Position numbers and translations under genes: made by a program
Notes under the pieces: generated by a model
What the model saw: the letters and a program-made list of their open reading frames with translations, nothing else
Told to the model about the DNA's origin: nothing
Database searches by the model: none
In this document: one piece after another, positions 411-34,226 of the stretch
Layout: the number at the start of each line of letters is the position of its first letter
Position numbering within the stretch: the stretch's first letter is position 1
NCBI GenBank assembly: GCA_001795535.1
Contig: MGPK01000049.1
Span: 1-34,226, forward strand
Source of the DNA: Deltaproteobacteria bacterium GWA2_54_12
GTDB lineage: Bacteria; Desulfobacterota; GWC2-55-46
Length of the DNA stretch: 34,226 bases
Direction of reading: 5' to 3'

Positions 411-902
411 ATGGGCGTCAGTTATTCAGATATAATAGAGAGGATGAGATGGGCCGGCAAGCTCAAGAACGACTCTGCCGTTGCCAGGGTGCTTGGCGTA
501 ACCCCGCAGGCCCTCTCCAACTATAAGAAAAGGGGCGAGATGCCGACCGACCTGGTCCTGAGGTTCGCGAACATCTACGGCCTTTCGGTCGACTGGCTCA
601 TCTCCGGCGAAGGCGAGATGTACAAGCCCGGAAGAGGCGGCGAGTTCGCCGCCAAGGGCTATATGATAGCCGCTGAAGAGTCGAGCGCCTACGGCAAGGA
701 AGGCAAAGAGTTCAGGCCTCCTGATTTTGCCTCGCTCTCCCCTGACGAGATAATTTATGTCGGCAAGCTCCTTAAGATCCTCCGCAGCAGCAACAAAAGC
801 ACAGCCGCTGCCATCAAGTACAGCGTGGACGCTTTCCTGAAGGCATCCGAGCTGCCGGTTGAGGCGTATGAGCCTGAGAAGGAAGCCGTAAACAAGAATT
901 AA
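411..902 (+). CDS. CI-repressor-like helix-turn-helix transcriptional regulator
   Basis: 163 residues. The N-terminal ~65 residues match the bacteriophage CI-repressor-type helix-turn-helix family: a helix with NDSAVARVLGVTPQALSNYK followed by KRGEMP, then a segment containing SVDWLISGEGEM that is typical of chromosomal members. The usual C-terminal S24 self-cleaving peptidase domain is absent. The remaining ~95 residues are hydrophilic and unassigned, so SOS-type autoproteolysis is not expected. ATG 411 has a good ribosome site (AAGGAGA about 7 bases upstream). A perfect-consensus promoter lies about 210 bp upstream and a repeat element begins 2 bp after the stop. Its position behind a tRNA 3' end is reminiscent of integrated elements, but no integrase or other phage gene is present. 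Targets are unknown. Confidence 0.75.
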   Translation: MGVSYSDIIERMRWAGKLKNDSAVARVLGVTPQALSNYKKRGEMPTDLVLRFANIYGLSVDWLISGEGEMYKPGRGGEFAAKGYMIAAEESSAYGKEGKEFRPPDFASLSPDEIIYVGKLLKILRSSNKSTAAAIKYSVDAFLKASELPVEAYEPEKEAVNKN

Positions 903-904
903 GG

Positions 905-1032
905 TCTAAAAATTGCTCTTTTTCCTGATCTCTTCGTCAGGGCGTAAATAAAAATGCTCACATATTGTCATATAAGCTCCGCTTTTTATTTCCACCCTTC
1001 CTCGACCTCAGAAAAAATATCTAATTTTTAGA
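905..1032 (+). repeat. 128-bp dispersed palindromic element, copy 1
   Basis: This is an imperfect inverted repeat with 10-bp perfect ends (TCTAAAAATT at 905-914, AATTTTTAGA at 1023-1032) and an inner 9-bp stem AAATAAAAA (946-954) with TTTTTATTT (983-991). The same 128-bp unit occurs at 15708 and 30549. It begins 2 bp after the stop codon of the CI-like gene. No open frame of useful length lies inside. It is about 94% identical to copy 2 and about 88% to copy 3 by hand alignment. Confidence 0.9.
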
Positions 1033-1054
1033 GTAGCGATAAGTTAAAAGACTC

Positions 1055-1089
1055 AAAGGCCGCGTCCTGAAAAGGACGCGGCCTTTTTT
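1055..1089 (+). terminator. Rho-independent terminator
   Basis: GGCCGCGTCC (1058-1067), a TGAAAA loop and GGACGCGGCC (1074-1083) form a perfect 10-bp GC-rich stem followed by six T residues. It ends the transcript of the CI-like gene and repeat copy 1, and insulates them from the quinone operon that starts at 1137. Confidence 0.9.
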
Positions 1090-15662: not shown

Positions 15663-15707
15663 TGGCGTTGTGTCAGAGACTGGCCTCTCTAACGCTTCAA
15701 GGCTACC

Positions 15708-15835
15708 TCTAAAAATTGCTCTTTTCCCTGACCTCTGCGTCAGGGCGTAAATAAAAATGCTCACATATTGTCATATATGCTGCGTTTTTTATTTCCACCC
15801 TTCCTTGACTTCAGAAAAAATATCTAATTTTTAGA
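15708..15835 (+). repeat. 128-bp dispersed palindromic element, copy 2
   Basis: This copy is the same length as copy 1 with about eight substitutions. Its terminal inverted repeat is slightly longer, 12 bp (CCTCTAAAAATT at 15706-15717 with AATTTTTAGAGG at 15826-15837). It lies 28 bp beyond the stop codon of the minus-strand cytochrome gene, in the opposite orientation to that gene. Confidence 0.9.
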
Positions 15836-15863
15836 GGCAGCCCTACTTCTGTTATTCAAATAT

Positions 15864-16319
15864 TCAAGGCCTGAACCGGTCATGACAGGACACGCAGCCG
15901 TCGAGGAGTTTCTTGGTGACGGCTGTCATGTTCTGACGGTCGCCCTTGTGTGCAGCCGTGGCGAGCGATTCGAGGTTGGCGTGGAAATCCTTGTCCATCC
16001 TCTCGAACTCCGCAACCTTTGAGGCGTTCTTCCTGAGCTTCACCTCTCCGGCGTGAAGCGCTTTCTGGGTCTTTTCCATCTTGCCGTGCATGGTCTCGAG
16101 CGCCTGGTGGACCCTGTGGCCGTCGCCAAGGGCGACTGCCGAGACGACTTCCCTGAAGACCGCGTCAAGCGCCTTCATCTCTTCGATAAGCGCGCCTGAC
16201 CCTGCTGAATGGACAGATGCCTTGTGCTGGCTGTGGTCAGCCGAGATTGCGGCGAAAGGCGTAATTGAGATAAACAGCGCCGATATAAAAGCCGCATTCA
16301 GGAAAGTTCTCTTTTTCAT
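15864..16319 (-). CDS. Monoheme cytochrome c (cytochrome c'-like)
   Basis: 151 residues with a Sec signal peptide (MKKRTFLNAAFISALFISIT to about ISA, residue 27), so it is periplasmic. The only heme-binding motif is CVSCH at residues 142-146, near the C terminus, preceded by a long helical region. This layout, a four-helix bundle with a C-terminal CxxCH, is that of cytochrome c' and relatives, which bind small gases or transfer electrons. The His-rich stretch DHSQHKASVH follows the signal peptide. ATG 16319 has AAGGAG 8 bases upstream. It is 66 bp behind the RND operon and may be a separate transcript. Confidence 0.78.
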   Translation of the reverse strand: MKKRTFLNAAFISALFISITPFAAISADHSQHKASVHSAGSGALIEEMKALDAVFREVVSAVALGDGHRVHQALETMHGKMEKTQKALHAGEVKLRKNASKVAEFERMDKDFHANLESLATAAHKGDRQNMTAVTKKLLDGCVSCHDRFRP

Positions 16320-20689: not shown

Positions 20690-22021
20690 TTATTCAAGGC
20701 CAAGGTCCTTTAATATCGTGCCGGCCTCAAAGCTCAAGGCGGCAAGGCTTGCGGCATGGGCGTTCTTTCTCATGACAACAGAAGCCCTGGCCCCGCTCAG
20801 GCTCGCTTCCGCGTCGAGGAGGTCTACAATCGGGGAGAGGGAATTCTCGAACCTCAGCCTTACGAGCCGTTCTCCCTCTTCGGCGCTCTTCAATGCCGCC
20901 TCAGTAAGCTCGGCGTTCTTCCTGGCTTCTTCGACATTGAAGTATGCCTGATGGACGCTGAACGAGACGAACTGCTTCATGCCTTCAAGGCGCTCGCCTG
21001 CCTCGACGGATTTGAGCCTTGCCCTGGATGCTTCAAAGCTCCTCGTAGAGTCAAATATATTCCACCTCAGGAAGGCCGAGACCTGCCAGCTCTCTCCCTC
21101 GCTCCCGAACGGCGTTTCATGGTCGTTCAGAAAATATGAGCCGCCAACGCCTACGATTGGAAAATAATCGGAATTAGCGAGAGAGACCGCGGCCCTGGCG
21201 TTCTCTCGCCGTTTTATCATTGATTTAAGGTCGCCTCGTTCCTGGGCAGACGAAAGGTAGTGGCTGACATTATGGAGCGGCATATCAAAGCCCGAAGAAT
21301 CTGCCTGGGCCTCCTCGTCAAGTCCGAGGAGCAATCCGAGCGACCTTTTGGCAAGCGAAAGACCTTTCTGGGCTGAAACAAGCCTCTGTTCAGATTCTAA
21401 AAGGCCTGTCCTGGCCCGGAGCACATCCGAGAAGAGGCCCAGGCCGCCCGTGTGCCTTGCCTCGGCTATCCTGAGGTGCTCTTTGCTGTCATTGAGGCCC
21501 GCTTCTGCGGCCTGTTTGAAACCTTCGGCAGTGTTGACCGAAAGAAAGGCGTTCACTATATTGAAGGCGGCCTCTTCGCGGCTACGCGAAAGCTCGTCCC
21601 TGCTGGCAGAGTATTCTTCTTTTGCCATGCTGAGGCCGACCCGGGCTTTCCTCGCGTAAACGGGCTGCTCGATCGAAAGCGAGGTCTGGAAGTCGTTTAT
21701 CGCTTCCGGGCTGTTAAGCGAGTTTATGGCGAAGTCCTGTGATGAAAACCTTTCCTGGTTGAGCTTGGACGAGAAGGCGAAGGTCGGGTTGTTCGTCCTC
21801 ATGTAGCGCTCTTCGAATGTTATCTTCGGCAGGAGGCGGCCCCTTGCCATGCCTATCTCTTCGGCGGCAGCGCCGGTTGCGGCCGCGGCGGCCCTCAAGC
21901 CGTGGTTCTGGTTGAGGCCCAGCTCGACTGCCTCTTTCAACGAGAAAGGGCCGGCGGCTTGCGAGCTTGCGGTTGAGAGAATGATTAATGAGAGTGCGGC
22001 GAGGGTATGTTTCATTTTCAT
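20690..22021 (-). CDS. TolC-family outer-membrane efflux protein
   Basis: 443 residues. A Sec signal peptide (MKMKHTLAALSLIILSTASS, cleavage near residue 22) is followed by two structural repeats of the outer-membrane efflux protein family, rich in Ala, Glu and Leu as expected for the long alpha-barrel helices. The GPFSLKEAVELGLNQNHGLR start of the mature protein is typical. It forms the exit duct for the adaptor and permease encoded downstream. ATG 22021 is supported by GAAGG about 10 bases upstream. ATG 22015, two codons later, is possible and would keep the signal peptide. A gap of about 115 bp separates it from the DUF2892 gene. Confidence 0.9.
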   Translation of the reverse strand: MKMKHTLAALSLIILSTASSQAAGPFSLKEAVELGLNQNHGLRAAAAATGAAAEEIGMARGRLLPKITFEERYMRTNNPTFAFSSKLNQERFSSQDFAINSLNSPEAINDFQTSLSIEQPVYARKARVGLSMAKEEYSASRDELSRSREEAAFNIVNAFLSVNTAEGFKQAAEAGLNDSKEHLRIAEARHTGGLGLFSDVLRARTGLLESEQRLVSAQKGLSLAKRSLGLLLGLDEEAQADSSGFDMPLHNVSHYLSSAQERGDLKSMIKRRENARAAVSLANSDYFPIVGVGGSYFLNDHETPFGSEGESWQVSAFLRWNIFDSTRSFEASRARLKSVEAGERLEGMKQFVSFSVHQAYFNVEEARKNAELTEAALKSAEEGERLVRLRFENSLSPIVDLLDAEASLSGARASVVMRKNAHAASLAALSFEAGTILKDLGLE

Positions 22022-29037: not shown

Positions 29038-29080
29038 AATTCGCCCGACGCCTTTTAAAACCACAGAAAGAAAATTGAAT

Positions 29081-30553
29081 ATGGAAGCAAACGGCACAAA
29101 GGGTCTGGTTCTCGAAGAGCCACTCATATTTGAAAAATCCTTTCCGGGGCGCGCAGGCATCGGGCCCGCGCCCTCTGATGTCCCGGAGGCTGACCCGGCA
29201 TCGGTCCTTCCCTCGAAGTTCCTGAGGAAGGGGATAGAAGGGTTCCCGGACATCTCCGAGATGGACGCGGCGCGCCATTACACGAGGCTTTCGCAGTGGA
29301 ACTTCGGGCTTGACTCGGGCTTCTATCCGCTCGGGTCGTGCACCATGAAGTACAACCCCAAGATAAACGAGACGGCCGCGAGGCTCCCCGGCTTTGCCAT
29401 GCTCCACCCGTACCAGCCCGAGCACCTTTCACAGGGGGCCCTTGAGCTCATGCACTCGCTCGAAGGCTATCTCGCCGAGATAAGCGGCATGGAAGCGATA
29501 ACGCTCCAGCCCTCGGCCGGGGCGCACGGCGAGCTCTGCGGCCTTCTCATGATGGCCGCCTATTTCAAGGCCCAGGGAAAGCCCCGCACAAAGATAATCA
29601 TCCCTGACACCGCCCACGGCACGAACCCCGCGAGCTCGCACCTTGCCGGCTTCAAGGTCGTGCCCGTCAAGACCGAGGGCAAGGGCGCGCTTTCGGTCGA
29701 GATGGTCAGGGCAGTGATGGACGAAGACACGGCCGGGCTCATGCTCACGAACCCGAATACGATAGGCCTTTTCGAGCGGAACATAAAAGAGATAGCAGAT
29801 CTCGTCCACTCAAAGGGCGGCCTGGTGTACTGCGACGGCGCGAACATGAACGCCATCATGGGCCTTGTGAAGCTCGGCGACCTGGGCGTGGATGTAGTCC
29901 AGCTGAACCTCCACAAGACCTTTTCCACCCCGCACGGCGGCGGCGGCCCCGGAAGCGGGCCGGTCGGCGTAGGCAAGGTGCTGGAGCCTTACCTCCCCTG
30001 CCCGAGGATAAAGAAGGAAGGCGGAAAGTACAGTCTCGATTTCAACAGGCCCGATACAATCGGCAGGATGAAGGCCTTCTACGGGAACTTCTCCATAATG
30101 GTGAGGGCTTACAGCTACATAAGGCGCATGGGCGGGGCCGGATTGAAGCGCGCTTCAGAGACGGCCATCCTCAACGCCAACTACATAAAAGAGAGGCTCA
30201 AGGGCACTTATCATCTCGCCTTTGACGAGCCCTGCATGCACGAAGCCGTATTCTCCGACAAGTTCCAGCTCGGAAGCGGCATCTCCACGATGGACATCGC
30301 CAAGAGGCTCATCGACTACGGCTATCACCCGCCGACGGTCTACTTCCCGCTGGTCGTTCACGGCGCGATAATGATAGAGCCGACCGAGACCGAGACTGTC
30401 GATACGCTGGACAGGTTCATAGAAGTCATGAAGGCTATTGCGGAAGAGGCGAAGACAAACCCGCAGCTCCTGAAGGACGCGCCCACCAAGACGAAGATAA
30501 GAAGGGTCGATGAGACCCGGGCGGCCAGGGAGCCGATCCTGAGGTGGAAATAA
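29081..30553 (+). CDS. gcvPB: Glycine dehydrogenase (decarboxylating) subunit 2
   Basis: 490 residues, the PLP-binding half of the P protein. The PLP lysine lies in LNLHKTFSTPHGGGGPG, and PLGSCTMKYNPKINE, TLQPSAGAHGE and PDTAHGTNPAS are conserved. An in-frame TTG at 29075 precedes ATG 29081 by two codons. I prefer the ATG. A gap of 43 bp separates it from gcvPA. Its stop codon TAA (30551-30553) lies inside repeat copy 3, so the repeat supplies the end of the gene. A terminator follows at 30698-30723. Confidence 0.96.
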   Translation: MEANGTKGLVLEEPLIFEKSFPGRAGIGPAPSDVPEADPASVLPSKFLRKGIEGFPDISEMDAARHYTRLSQWNFGLDSGFYPLGSCTMKYNPKINETAARLPGFAMLHPYQPEHLSQGALELMHSLEGYLAEISGMEAITLQPSAGAHGELCGLLMMAAYFKAQGKPRTKIIIPDTAHGTNPASSHLAGFKVVPVKTEGKGALSVEMVRAVMDEDTAGLMLTNPNTIGLFERNIKEIADLVHSKGGLVYCDGANMNAIMGLVKLGDLGVDVVQLNLHKTFSTPHGGGGPGSGPVGVGKVLEPYLPCPRIKKEGGKYSLDFNRPDTIGRMKAFYGNFSIMVRAYSYIRRMGGAGLKRASETAILNANYIKERLKGTYHLAFDEPCMHEAVFSDKFQLGSGISTMDIAKRLIDYGYHPPTVYFPLVVHGAIMIEPTETETVDTLDRFIEVMKAIAEEAKTNPQLLKDAPTKTKIRRVDETRAAREPILRWK

Positions 30554-30676
30554 AAATCGCTCTTTTTCCCGATCTCTGCGTCAGACCGTAAATAAAAATG
30601 CTCACATATTGTCATATATGCTGCGCTTTTTATTTCCGCTCTTCCTTGATCTCAGAAAAAATAGCTGATTTTTAGG
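30549..30676 (+). repeat. 128-bp dispersed palindromic element, copy 3
   Basis: This is the most diverged copy, about 16 substitutions from copy 1 with no length change. Several changes preserve or restore pairing: T914-A1023 of copy 1 is C30558-G30667 here, G941-C996 is A-T, and the C943/A994 mismatch is a C-G pair. The gcvPB stop codon lies within its first five bases. Confidence 0.88.
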
Positions 30677-30697
30677 AGCACTGATAAATAGAAAGAA

Positions 30698-30723
30698 AAA
30701 AGCCCGCGAAAGCGGGTTTTTCT
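30698..30723 (+). terminator. Rho-independent terminator of the gcv operon
   Basis: CCCGC (30703-30707), GAAA tetraloop and GCGGG (30712-30716), extended by A-T and G-T pairs, followed by TTTTTCT. It lies 22 bp beyond repeat copy 3. Confidence 0.82.
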
Positions 30724-30750
30724 ATTTTGCGGAGTGAGGGAGATTGATTT

Positions 30751-30832
30751 TGTCATTCTGAGGGAGCGAAGTGACCGAAGAATCTCGTAATGATGATAAA
30801 AGCAGATTCTTCGCTTCTCTCAGAATGACATC
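30751..30832. repeat. 82-bp palindromic repeat
   Basis: TGTCATTCTGAG...GAAGAATCTCG (30751-30787) is mirrored by AGATTCTTCGCTTCTCTCAGAATGACA, ending near 30832. A second, partial relative lies at 31163-31214, so the element occurs twice in this 660-bp intergenic stretch. It has no coding content. Confidence 0.75.
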
Positions 30833-30887
30833 AGAACCAACCCACTTCAAAGCTTTCGCTTGCTCCGCCCTGTTACGGGGTATATGT

Positions 30888-30928
30888 TAAGACAATACAA
30901 GAACAAGTCTCGCTTTTGTTTTGTCTTA
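30888..30928. other. Hairpin in the gcvPB-tonB intergenic region
   Basis: TAAGACAA near 30888 pairs with TTGTCTTA ending near 30928, with extra AC-rich/GT-rich pairing in between. It may be part of the larger palindromic patchwork here. No function is assigned. Confidence 0.4.
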
Positions 30929-30939
30929 CCCAAACCCCA

Positions 30940-31026
30940 GGGGGATATCAGAGTGAGCCTAAAGGAGGCCGAGCGCGCGCCTCTTATTTCTAGCGAACGA
31001 GGCCGACAGCGAGCCCGATATCCCCC
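30940..31026. repeat. 87-bp palindromic element with 10-bp perfect ends
   Basis: GGGGGATATC (30940-30949) and GATATCCCCC (31017-31026) are exact inverted copies. Inside, GAGCC / GGAGGCC and ACGAGGCCGAC / GCGAGCCC blocks give further partial pairing. It is a different sequence type from the 128-bp element. Only one copy is in the window. Confidence 0.6.
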
Positions 31027-31162
31027 GAAGCGCACGGCAGTGCGCAAAGAGGCCTTTTGCAAAAATATGCTCAGTCAGGTAGGTAGGATGTGCCCACAGT
31101 GTAATCCCCTGTTCACTCTTTAAAAAAGAGGGGAGCCAGTAATCGCACCTTTGGTTAAAAAG

Positions 31163-31214
31163 CGAGATTCTTCCGCTTCTCTTCGCTCAGGGCTTCTCAC
31201 TTGCTCAGAATGAC
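31163..31214. repeat. Partial copy of the 30751-type repeat
   Basis: GAGATTCTTCCGCTTCTCTTCGC and CTCAGAATGACAG match the right half of the 30751-30832 element, with an insertion of about 15 bases between the two blocks. It ends just before the stop codon of the tonB-like gene. The stretch 31090-31135 before it resembles half of the 22752-22845 element. Confidence 0.6.
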
Positions 31215-31218
31215 AGAC

Positions 31219-32130
31219 CTACCTCCCCATTGGCAAATCGATCAGGTGATAAGTGAACTGCCCTTTTATGCTTATGTCGTCGATGCTGAAGTTTTCCGGG
31301 AAGGGCGCGAAAGGGGCTGAGAGTCTTACGGCGGTAATGGCGGCGTCATCGAGCATCGGATAGCCTGAGGACCGTTCAAGCGATACATCCGACACTGACC
31401 CGTCCCTGTTTATCTTGAAGTTGACCTTGAGGCTCCCCTGCCAGCCGTTTCGCGCGGCGAGAGCGGGGTATTCCCAGTAGAACTCTATCCTGTTCTTCAT
31501 GTCCATCAGGTACTTCTGGTACTTGAGTTCAGAGGTATTGAGCGACAGGGTCTTGCCGACCTCGCCCTTCGGGGCCTCTGCTTCGTACTTCCTCGCAAGC
31601 TCGGCTATGCGGTCGTCTGTCGGGAAAAGGCTCGGTTTTTTGGGCTCTGCCAGGATCCTGGGCTGGGGCCTTGTCTCTTCTTTTGTCGCGGTTTCGCTTC
31701 CTTTTTGGGCTGGCTCGGCCCTTACCGGCTCTTCAACAGGGCCGACGCTTTCTTTTACGGTCTTTTCCTGAATACTTCCTTCCTTCAGGGAAGGCCTCGC
31801 CGCGGGCCTGCTTTGCTCAGCCGGATTTGACGGCACAGCCGGGGCAGGCAAAAGGACCTTCGGCAAAGGCTCAGGCCAGCTCTCCTTTTTAACGCTCTGC
31901 TCCCTTTGGGCGCCGTGGGTCGAAGGCTTTTTTACAGGCGAGAGGTCCTCCGGCGGAAGAGCCGGCAAATCGACCACATCGACAAGTATAGGGGGCGCCT
32001 CACCCCTCGGACGAGCCTGCCCGCCGGAGGGCAAAAGCTGCAAGGCTCCCCATATGCCCAGGTGCACAAGCAGCGAAAGTATAAGGAATATGGGGAAGGC
32101 GGCTGGCTCGCCTCCGGTTTTGATTGACAT
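31219..32130 (-). CDS. TonB-family energy-transducing protein
   Basis: 303 residues. One N-terminal transmembrane helix (about 14-34, FPIFLILSLLVHLGIWGALQ) follows a short cytoplasmic tail. A long Pro/Glu/Lys-rich periplasmic spacer (about 40-195) leads to a C-terminal TonB domain with GWQGSLKVNFKINRDGSVSD and SSGYPMLDDAAITAVRLSAPF. It couples ExbB/ExbD-derived energy to outer-membrane receptors or, like TolA-type proteins, to envelope integrity. No exbBD, tolB or receptor gene is adjacent in the window. It is divergent from tatA. Confidence 0.88.
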   Translation of the reverse strand: MSIKTGGEPAAFPIFLILSLLVHLGIWGALQLLPSGGQARPRGEAPPILVDVVDLPALPPEDLSPVKKPSTHGAQREQSVKKESWPEPLPKVLLPAPAVPSNPAEQSRPAARPSLKEGSIQEKTVKESVGPVEEPVRAEPAQKGSETATKEETRPQPRILAEPKKPSLFPTDDRIAELARKYEAEAPKGEVGKTLSLNTSELKYQKYLMDMKNRIEFYWEYPALAARNGWQGSLKVNFKINRDGSVSDVSLERSSGYPMLDDAAITAVRLSAPFAPFPENFSIDDISIKGQFTYHLIDLPMGR

Positions 32131-32201
32131 GGGCTCTTAATTCTGTCAAGATTTAATGAGAGACACTAAAGATATTCTACACTTTATCGCGGGGTTATAC
32201 A

Positions 32202-32381
32202 ATGTTCGGGCTCGGGACGACAGAGCTTATAGTAATACTCGTCATCATCATGGTACTGTTCGGGGCTGGCAAACTCCCGGAGATAGGCTCTGGTCTTGGC
32301 AAGGCGATAAAGAACTTCAAGAAGGCCTCGAACGAGGACGCCGACGCTCCCAAAGAAGGCAAAGAGAAGCTCGAAAAATAA
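32202..32381 (+). CDS. tatA: Sec-independent translocase subunit TatA
   Basis: 59 residues: [20 protein letters not shown], then [20 protein letters not shown] and a short charged tail. This is the complete TatA plan: a short N-terminal membrane helix, the FGAGKLPE hinge, an amphipathic helix and an acidic/basic tail. TatA forms the pore of the twin-arginine pathway for folded proteins. ATG 32202 has GGGG about 8 bases upstream. It stands alone between the divergent tonB-like gene and a convergent gene whose stop lies 5 bp away. No tatC is present in the window. TatB is excluded by the short tail. Confidence 0.93.
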
Positions 32382-32386
32382 GCTTC

Positions 32387-33154
32387 CTATTGCCCCTTTC
32401 TCTTTCCCTTTTTACCCCTTTTTAAAAGCAGGTCCTTCGCTATTTCCCTGACCTCCGGGTGTATCGTCCCGTCTTCCGATATCGCGGATAAGTCCTGGGT
32501 GAGCATCTTTTCAATCAGCGCTATGGAGACCCTTGGCAAGGTGTACGGGTTCAAGGTCACGGCCTTGGCGACTTCGTACCTTTTCGACCACTTCGGGTGC
32601 AGGGCGACAAGCTTCAATATGCGGCCGGAGTTCGGCCTCTTCGAGGCGATCTTGAGGACTTCGGCCTCGGTTATGCGCGGGTTGTCCAGGAGGTTGCCTA
32701 TGACGACGGGGTCAGGGTCTGAAAGGAGCATGTCTATGCGGGTTTTGAGCTGGCTTTTGGAAAGGGCCCGGCGCTCGCCGAGAGTCAGGTGCTCCATCCT
32801 GATGAACTCTTCTTCCTCGTAGCCGCTTACGCCTTTTTTGTGCGGTTCGTACCCGGTAAACAGGCGCGATATCCTGGTCAAGCCGCCCCTGAGGGCGGCA
32901 AGATAGATGGAGTTGTACGCGGCGTCCCCCAACAGGCCCTGTACCGCGTCGTCGTCGACCATCAATGAGCGCACGATAGAGGCCTGTCTGTCTTTAATGT
33001 CTCTGTTGTAGACGGCGTCCAGAAGGCGGGCGCTGTCTTCCGGTGCAAGCGCCGCGAGGGTCCTGCAGAGCAAGGCAAGCCTCATCCGCTCTTCAGGGAG
33101 CGCTGAGATGTCTTTAAGGAGTTTTGCTGCCAGGGCCTCGATGTCGGGCATCAA
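32387..33154 (-). CDS. Repeat-like helical protein of unknown function
   Basis: 255 residues, predicted all-helical and soluble. The C-terminal half contains tandem helical units reminiscent of HEAT-like or leucine-rich variant repeats: DPDPVVIGNLLDNPRITEAE, ILKLVALHPKWSKRYEVAK and NPYTLPRVSIALIEKML. The tail is very basic (KRGKKGKRKG). Such proteins usually bind partners rather than catalyse. It lies 42 bp downstream of the DUF3426 gene on the same strand and is probably co-transcribed with it, so the two may work together. The start is ATG 33154 (MMPD; second ATG 33151 possible). Confidence 0.62.
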   Translation of the reverse strand: MMPDIEALAAKLLKDISALPEERMRLALLCRTLAALAPEDSARLLDAVYNRDIKDRQASIVRSLMVDDDAVQGLLGDAAYNSIYLAALRGGLTRISRLFTGYEPHKKGVSGYEEEEFIRMEHLTLGERRALSKSQLKTRIDMLLSDPDPVVIGNLLDNPRITEAEVLKIASKRPNSGRILKLVALHPKWSKRYEVAKAVTLNPYTLPRVSIALIEKMLTQDLSAISEDGTIHPEVREIAKDLLLKRGKKGKRKGQ

Positions 33155-33196
33155 GAAGACCGGTTAAGTGGGAAGGGCAGGGGAAAAAGTGTCCCC

Positions 33197-34226
33197 TTAC
33201 CTTACGATATCGAGGCCGAATTCTGAAAGACCCTCCGGGACCTCAATAAAGAGGACCATGACCGGCACGCTGCCCCTGGGAGGTATGACGCCGCCGGAAG
33301 GGTCCCTGAAGGCCCGTTCAAGCTCTTCTTTCTGAAGGTTCCTGACATCGTCTATCGATACTATCCTGCCGGGAGAGACAAACTTTTCGGCTAACACGCC
33401 GCCCCTGTCGTTGTATATTACGCCTGTGGCGGCTTTTATCTCCTGAGGCTCGTCGGTGATGTTCTTGACGCGGGCGTCTATTACGAAGAGCTTGCCGAAG
33501 TTTTTGTTCTCTTCGTAGAAGCCCTTGATGGACTCTATCTCGACCACCTTGATTTCGGCGGTCGGCATCACGAGGTGCGTGAGCTTGTCTATGACGCCGG
33601 TGAAGTATATGAGCCCGCCGCCGAGGACTATTACGAGGACGGCGATTATAAGGCCCATCCTGGGCTGGCTTGTCCTGTGAGGAGCGCGCAAATCTTCTTC
33701 CTCCTCTTCTTCCTGTTCGTCAGGGGCTCCAAAGGACAGGGGTTCGCCTTTTTCGACTGCCCTTGAGAGTATTGACTTGAAAGCCTCTTCCTCTTCTTCC
33801 GCTGGTCCATCCGCGCCGGGCTTCGGTTGCGCTGGAGCCTTGCCTTCATTTGTATAGGCGGCCGCGGAAAACGGGATGACATTCTCGGCTATCGCGGGTT
33901 TTTGGGGCTCTGGCGCTCTGGCTTTGCTTTCATCGCCAGGCCAGGGCTCGTCTGTCTTCGGGCTTTCAGCTGCGAATTCGTCGAAGTTGAAATCGGGTTC
34001 AGTCCTGTCGGCACCGGCTTCGCCGCTCAAGTCCTCGCCGGAGTCTTCCCCGGTATCTATTGGCTCGTCCGGCAGAGGCTTTTCAAAAGCCCTTGAAAAC
34101 GGGTCGTCCTCTTCTTCTGAGGCTTCCCAGCCGTCTTCCTGGTTCTTTTTTTCGTTTGAACGGTCTTCGCTGAAGGAAAAGTCCAGGTCGTTGATGGAGA
34201 TCTTATGACCTTCCCCCTCCTTTTGC
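33197..34226 (-). CDS. DUF3426-domain membrane protein, N terminus beyond the window
   Basis: At least 342 residues, open in frame to the right edge, so the gene is 5'-truncated by the window. A start at 34030 (TTG) is not convincing because the acidic frame continues upstream (FEKPLPDEP, WEASEEEDDPF, ISINDLDFSFSEDRS). A long acidic region precedes one transmembrane helix (MGLIIAVLVIVLGGGLIYF). The last ~110 residues match the DUF3426 domain: KLFVIDARVKNITDEP, ATGVIYNDRG and an IPPRGSVPVMVLFIEVPEGL end. Relatives usually begin with an MJ0042-type zinc ribbon, expected just outside the window. The function is unknown. Confidence 0.72.
   Translation of the reverse strand, partial: QKEGEGHKISINDLDFSFSEDRSNEKKNQEDGWEASEEEDDPFSRAFEKPLPDEPIDTGEDSGEDLSGEAGADRTEPDFNFDEFAAESPKTDEPWPGDESKARAPEPQKPAIAENVIPFSAAAYTNEGKAPAQPKPGADGPAEEEEEAFKSILSRAVEKGEPLSFGAPDEQEEEEEEDLRAPHRTSQPRMGLIIAVLVIVLGGGLIYFTGVIDKLTHLVMPTAEIKVVEIESIKGFYEENKNFGKLFVIDARVKNITDEPQEIKAATGVIYNDRGGVLAEKFVSPGRIVSIDDVRNLQKEELERAFRDPSGGVIPPRGSVPVMVLFIEVPEGLSEFGLDIVR

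Follow-up and report, generated by a model that had tools for sequence, protein, structure and literature searches.

The palindromic element that occurs three times in the window (the whole 34,226-nucleotide stretch analyzed) is almost certainly a MITE of ~142 bp, present in about 100 copies in its genome. Its unusual part is a strict, strand-specific order of stop codon, element and terminator that holds across a bacterial family. Two readings compete to explain this order: an ERIC-like function of the element in the 3' UTR has about an even chance, and selfish insertion behind stop codons with an oriented preference is a serious rival.

Copies in the window

The features of the window on which the analysis rests are as follows; "docked" refers to the position of an element end at a stop codon, as measured below.

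898-1039, plus strand: copy 1; core 905-1032, outer 7-bp ends decayed, start inside or just past the stop codon of gene 411-902
900-902, plus strand: stop codon TAA at which the left end of copy 1 is docked; it ends gene 411-902, which encodes a phage-CI-type HTH protein
1055-1086, plus strand: canonical intrinsic terminator behind copy 1, with a 14-pair stem and a T tail
15701-15842, plus strand: copy 2; both outer ends intact (GGCTACC...GGCAGCC), undocked
30542-30683, plus strand: copy 3; outer ends decayed; the upstream gcvPB-like gene takes its stop codon from this copy
30551-30553, plus strand: stop codon TAA of gene 29081-30553 (GcvP subunit 2-like), which comes from TAAAAAT in the left arm of copy 3
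30698-30721, plus strand: intrinsic terminator behind copy 3, AAAAGCCCGC-GAAA-GCGGGTTTTT
32140-32175, no strand: empty site; a copy that the window lacks is present at this point (C62:11074-11214) on contig C62, which is collinear and 87-90% identical

A sequence-only reading had described a 128-bp palindrome at 905-1032, 15708-15835 and 30549-30676. All three copies were recovered, all on the plus strand and free of indels, with 94% and 87-90% identity to copy 1 (~94% and 88% in that reading). An unfiltered covariance-model search of the window returned just these three (E 1e-41, 6e-37 and 3e-32), and the window contains no further repeat of 35 bp or longer besides the element. The 128-bp unit stands as the core but not as the full element, which is really ~142 bp, with 7 bp more inverted repeat on each side in many copies. 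The distances of 2, 28 and less than 0 nt to a stop codon were also right: the TAA at 900-902 lies 2 nt before copy 1, a minus-strand stop at 15864 lies 28 nt from copy 2, and copy 3 contains the TAA at 30551-30553. The sense of copy 2 is opposite to that of both its neighbors, mnmE and a cytochrome c'-like gene, the gene that ends near it included.

Orthologues of copy 3 lie at L220 in G002, a genome of the same genus, and at L074 on contig C62. The latter contig (L022, L074) is collinear with window positions 29063-33668 at ~84-90% DNA identity, gcvPB included. The MAG probably includes contigs from another, closely related species, and some of the ~100 copies may therefore come from two genomes. 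In the spacer behind copy 3, TGTCATTCTGAG occurs three times (window 30751, 30819 and 31204). This sequence and TGTCATTGCGAG recur in many loci of the same genome, with 20 and 8 matches in the analyzed stretches; thus, another repeat family exists.

Copy number and taxonomic range

A 19-bp anchor allowing up to 3 mismatches gave 101 matches in the genome, equally on both strands, and the reversed control pattern gave 0, so the repeat is not due to chance. In this genome, a draft of 2.08 Mb in 77 contigs that is ~80% complete, 99 distinct copies were placed, none of them inside a gene predicted by a codon-usage script. The element was found in 30 of the 48 genomes searched in the order. It is carried by 26 of 30 genomes of the window's own family; outside that family, one genome of a second family has it, and a third family has a weaker form of it in three genomes. 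It was absent from 11 examined genomes elsewhere in the class. A scan of a genome collection gave matches solely in uncultured MAGs, mostly deltaproteobacterial and many from groundwater. The high-copy element is a marker of an entire family of uncultured Deltaproteobacteria from groundwater.

At the gathering score the only Rfam match in the window was a partial tRNA, and at E up to 1 the three element loci gave no match overlapping an element. The plasmid collection and 5,426 E. coli genomes gave no match to the element, and the viral contigs gave no exact match to the core pattern. These searches agree with the earlier remark that the sequence was not recognized as a named family. As far as the literature shows, the MITE family is undescribed, with neither an Rfam match nor a description in the literature searched. 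A different long palindrome, at L018:386-545 (C68 about 21558-21717), gave many chance matches to Rfam microRNA precursors, as is usual for palindromes.

Ends, target sites and mobility

Alignment of the genome copies defined the outer ends. On the left (A)GGCTACC is followed by TCTAAAAATT, and on the right AATTTTTAGA is followed by GGCAGCC(T); in a variant the outermost bases are GGGTGCC and GGCACCC.

Element ends: GGSTRCCTCTAAAAATT

These are the short terminal inverted repeats of a MITE, GGCTACC/GGCAGCC or GGGTGCC/GGCACCC, continued inward by TCTAAAAATT/AATTTTTAGA. The element has no coding capacity, and its arms carry TAA stops. Among the 45 copies with both outer ends recognizable, 9 are flanked by an exact 4-bp duplication where 1.2 are expected, a count reached in 0 of 2000 shuffles; in the same 45 copies there is no excess of duplications at 5-10 bp. 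The target consensus is TTAA. Where an occupied site can be compared with an empty one, the tetramer is present once at the latter: TTGA in the pair L043/L135 and TTTA in the pair of L004 and the G002 locus L223. Further pairs of occupied and empty sites, including that of L022 and the window, were also found. Internally deleted derivatives occur as well, one of 58 bp in L179 flanked by TTAA on both sides and another, also short, in L058. Together with the inverted ends, the 4-bp duplications and the empty sites, these derivatives identify the element as a MITE. The empty sites in close relatives that had been proposed as a check are thus present, and mobility, earlier stated only as a condition, follows from them and from the target duplications; movement in trans is presumed.

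Several variant forms were seen. Short derivatives made of the ends only, about 37-69 bp long, lie at L179:~1958-2015, L058:2515-2580, L299:1482-1517 and G016:C325:13783-13851. Some of them sit directly behind stop codons, and the one in L299 lies behind a reading frame that we take, by eye, to be ZapA-like. In a chimeric subfamily the right two thirds are the element and the left third is an unrelated yet conserved sequence (...CAGCCGTTTGATACGAATTTGCCCGTCCGGC...).

Members of the chimeric subfamily: L124:3181, L165:7082, L112:1902, L164:4111, L132:1429, L151:304

The copy at L177:6295-6571 is broken by other small inserts, including a CCCCGCAGCAAGCTGCGGGG hairpin, and so represents nested small elements. 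Tandem pairs and one triple, at a spacing of about 130-145 bp, occur at C33:9945-10369 (L056), C59:31377-31634 (L003), C51:3910-4158 (L007), L071 and L226.

An autonomous IS with the same termini was not found in searches, among incomplete MAGs, for the TIR pattern in 7 genomes, PF01609 in 10, PF13701 in 29 and PF01797 in 29. The TIR pattern retrieved elements or their short derivatives and nothing else in the seven genomes; PF01609 (DDE_Tnp_1) gave 2 partial matches in its 10 genomes, neither with element ends, and PF13701 (IS1380 type) gave one sub-threshold partial match. An origin as a REP/REPIN-type element, mobilized by a RAYT (Y1 tyrosine transposase), is very improbable, even though Y1_Tnp-like genes of about 190 aa are present in the window's own and related genomes: i) none of the 12 Y1_Tnp loci examined has an element within 1.5 kb; ii) the copy-rich genomes G001, G014 and G017 lack Y1_Tnp; and iii) REPs differ from the element in size, 4-bp duplication and termini. 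A RAYT/REP origin was therefore rejected, as the element is not linked to Y1_Tnp loci. The window's own genome has two Y1-type transposase-like genes, G000:C9:4851-5219 and C64:5323-5667. The C9 locus (L277), the one of the two that was looked at, has no element within 1.5 kb. Both genes are possibly RAYTs of another palindrome family.

Placement at stop codons

The association with gene 3' ends, first suspected from the three window copies, extends across the genome and to other genomes, and it is specific to orientation. No analyzed copy falls within a predicted gene. Where the gene to the left ends at the element, and so reads its plus strand, the left end lies -13 to +12 nt from the last base of the gene in 44 of 59 cases, against 16.8 expected if copies were placed uniformly within the spacer. 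Where the gene to the right ends at the element, the right end is docked in 5 of 44, against 13.1 expected on the same basis. Genomes of other species show left docking in 32 of 42 (12.0 expected) versus right docking in 10 of 39 (13.3 expected), and two same-genus genomes show left docking in 17 of 18 and 15 of 15 and right docking in 5 of 14 and 2 of 10. The window's own genome has zero copies at 13 to 46 nt from the stop, and docking is kept even when the spacer is hundreds of bases long. In all, 49 docked copies are in the plus sense versus 6 in the minus sense. At nine copies the gene stops at a TAA that the element itself supplies, in TCTAAAAATT. Sequence alone does not trivially explain this, since the right end has the same TCTAA reading inward.

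Tight tandem gaps hold 13 plus-sense and 7 minus-sense copies in the window's own genome and 18 and 16, respectively, in others. An orientation filter against minus-sense copies inside transcripts is unsupported, as both senses occur in such gaps. A general rule that the left end faces the nearest gene was also rejected; the tendency is strong at stop codons and weak at start codons.

Intrinsic terminators tend to lie on one side of the element. All docked plus-sense copies with a recognized terminator have it behind the element, 12 of 12 in the window's own genome and 12 of 12 in others, window copies 1 and 3 among them, and genes that read the element in the minus sense have their terminator before it in 24 of 27 cases. 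The difference in order between the senses is significant (Fisher p 4e-7; tandem pairs only, p 0.005), with some convergent copies entering both counts. The result is a quantitative placement rule: the left end within about 12 nt of the stop codon, and the terminator behind. Termination, one of the roles first suggested, is not borne out as the main role, because the canonical terminators are separate and positioned after docked copies. Furthermore, a scan for Rho-independent terminators (GC-rich stem plus T tract) flags none within copy 1 on either strand.

Conservation and the hairpin

Many sites are common to genomes of the genus: at least 14 of 24 sites in G001 and at least 15 of 23 in G002 are also occupied in the window's own genome, in the same orientation. 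The core is better conserved than the spacer beside it; in orthologous pairs the identity is 0.869 for the element, 0.728 for the 60 bp to its right and 0.81 for coding sequence further left. The outer ends are often lost up to the stop codon with the core retained, as in L056 compared with G001 L240. The long hairpin covaries: double-sided changes were counted in 97 cells versus 42 +/- 5 in shuffles and 25-43 in slid-partner controls, and clean pair swaps occur at columns 29-113 (TA/CG), 51-92 (AT/GC) and 3-140 (CG/GC). Templated correction of palindromes during replication could also yield pair swaps; thus, the covariation supports selection on the hairpin, short of proof.

The stronger RNA hairpin belongs to the minus strand, at -44 versus -24 kcal/mol for copy 1, and so to the opposite of the strand that docked genes carry; the minus-strand fold has a z of -7.9. 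Two column pairs, 63/80 and 27/115, form near-invariant A.C mismatches when the plus strand is read (250/255 and 224/255), and the minus strand has G.U pairs there; once these two fixed mismatch columns are set aside, G.U and A.C counts do not decide which strand is the functional RNA. The fold and the two column pairs would suit a barrier in which the inner hairpin of the minus strand, with a U tract after it, blocks antisense transcription arriving from downstream, hence the left-end-first arrangement behind stops. Such a barrier is nonetheless improbable: the scan of copy 1 flags no canonical terminator, minus-sense copies are tolerated in tight tandem gaps, and many docked copies have genes of one and the same direction on both sides.

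Older copies are docked no more often than younger ones: docking was found in 23 of 48 copies with intact ends and 26 of 51 with decayed ends. Docked copies are no better conserved than undocked ones (0.844 versus 0.888, small n). Orthologous copies are 0.902 identical and paralogs 0.882, a slight gap; therefore, conversion or re-insertion could mimic constraint.

Function or insertion preference

There is about an even chance that the element is a new MITE family kept as an ERIC-like hairpin in 3' UTRs. It would have been moved in trans, lacking coding capacity, into TTAA-like tetramers that are duplicated at insertion. The plus strand of a docked copy would then form the 3' UTR of the upstream gene or, in operons, an intercistronic stretch. 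The footprint of a terminating ribosome extends about 12 nt beyond the stop codon. Given this footprint and the 12-nt limit of docking, a ribosome at the stop codon would overlap the left arm and hold the outer stem open, and the hairpin may fold, or expose its right arm, depending on translation. The geometry fits an ERIC-like mechanism in that the right arm is A/U-rich and would be freed once the left arm is covered. Such translation-dependent folding could tune mRNA stability or termination, much in the manner of ERIC in yersiniae. The element may also act through spacing, in that it shifts the terminator about 140 nt away; ribosomes repress terminators sited a few bases past the stop codon (PMC4824070).

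Several points speak against function: the age-independence of docking, the conservation of docked copies, the closeness of orthologs to paralogs, the occurrence of both senses in tight gaps, and the stronger minus-strand hairpin. They make an oriented insertion preference without host function a serious rival, plausible at somewhat less than an even chance. Here the transposase would use a TTAA/TTRA tetramer that resembles or overlaps a stop codon and would favor, in one orientation, the interval between stop and terminator; the core would seem conserved because copies are young, converted or re-inserted. The target consensus TTAA contains TAA, and both shared and independently occupied sites occur, as this rival would have it; the first three of the points listed also favor it. 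A symmetric TTAA target alone, however, leaves the orientation bias of docked copies unexplained, and the core is retained while the outer ends decay, in a hairpin that covaries.

A bolder reading is unlikely: integration would be coupled to gene expression through a strand-specific choice of the few bases between stop codon and terminator (e.g., via terminating ribosomes, a paused polymerase or an exposed strand), and the element, once docked, would act as a 3'-UTR switch gated by translation, on dozens of genes in each genome and family-wide.

With the placement rule, a long-standing question about bacterial MITEs at gene ends can be tested: are they targeted there, merely tolerated, or kept for control of mRNA ends? 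If targeted, the element would choose its sites in an unusual way; if kept, it would add an ERIC-like layer of control in an uncultured lineage.

Comparison with known systems

The element shares features with several families of small repeats. REP/REPIN sequences with their RAYTs are likewise intergenic palindromes of high copy number, but REPs measure 20-40 bp and have a tagged end (PMC3733652), whereas the present element is 142 bp, makes 4-bp duplications and has no RAYT linkage. Pneumococcal BOX and RUP are also small interspersed mobile repeats, and BOX provides the stop codon of 36 annotated genes (PMC3049150). BOX differs in being modular (boxA/B/C) with ends that link it to ISSpn2 (PMC3049150); no IS partner was found for the present element. 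Coxiella QMITE2, a 150-190 bp MITE, lies mainly in 3' untranslated regions, overlaps gene C-termini and is conserved between strains (PMC5896051). Its duplications, 7-11 bp long, vary in sequence, and it has a GTAG REP inside (PMC5896051); the present element shows neither feature.

ERIC/IRU (127 bp) resembles the element in size, in being an imperfect full-length palindrome, in its intergenic location and in its tens to hundreds of copies. Yersinia ERIC at gene 3' ends destabilizes the upstream transcript in one orientation only: its conformation changes in a ribosome-dependent way, and an RNase E site within the 3' inverted repeat becomes exposed (see the reviews PMC2229807, PMC10969869). 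For the present element, the placement that such an orientation-dependent effect would need was measured. ERIC is carried by E. coli genomes, whereas the element matches nothing in 5,426 of them; it also makes a 4-bp TTAA-type duplication and is confined to one uncultured deltaproteobacterial order. The order of stop, element and terminator was measured here, and the literature searched gave no comparable figure for ERIC. Neither its sequence nor its target duplication makes the element a member of ERIC, BOX or QMITE2, the families whose action at gene ends it would most resemble.
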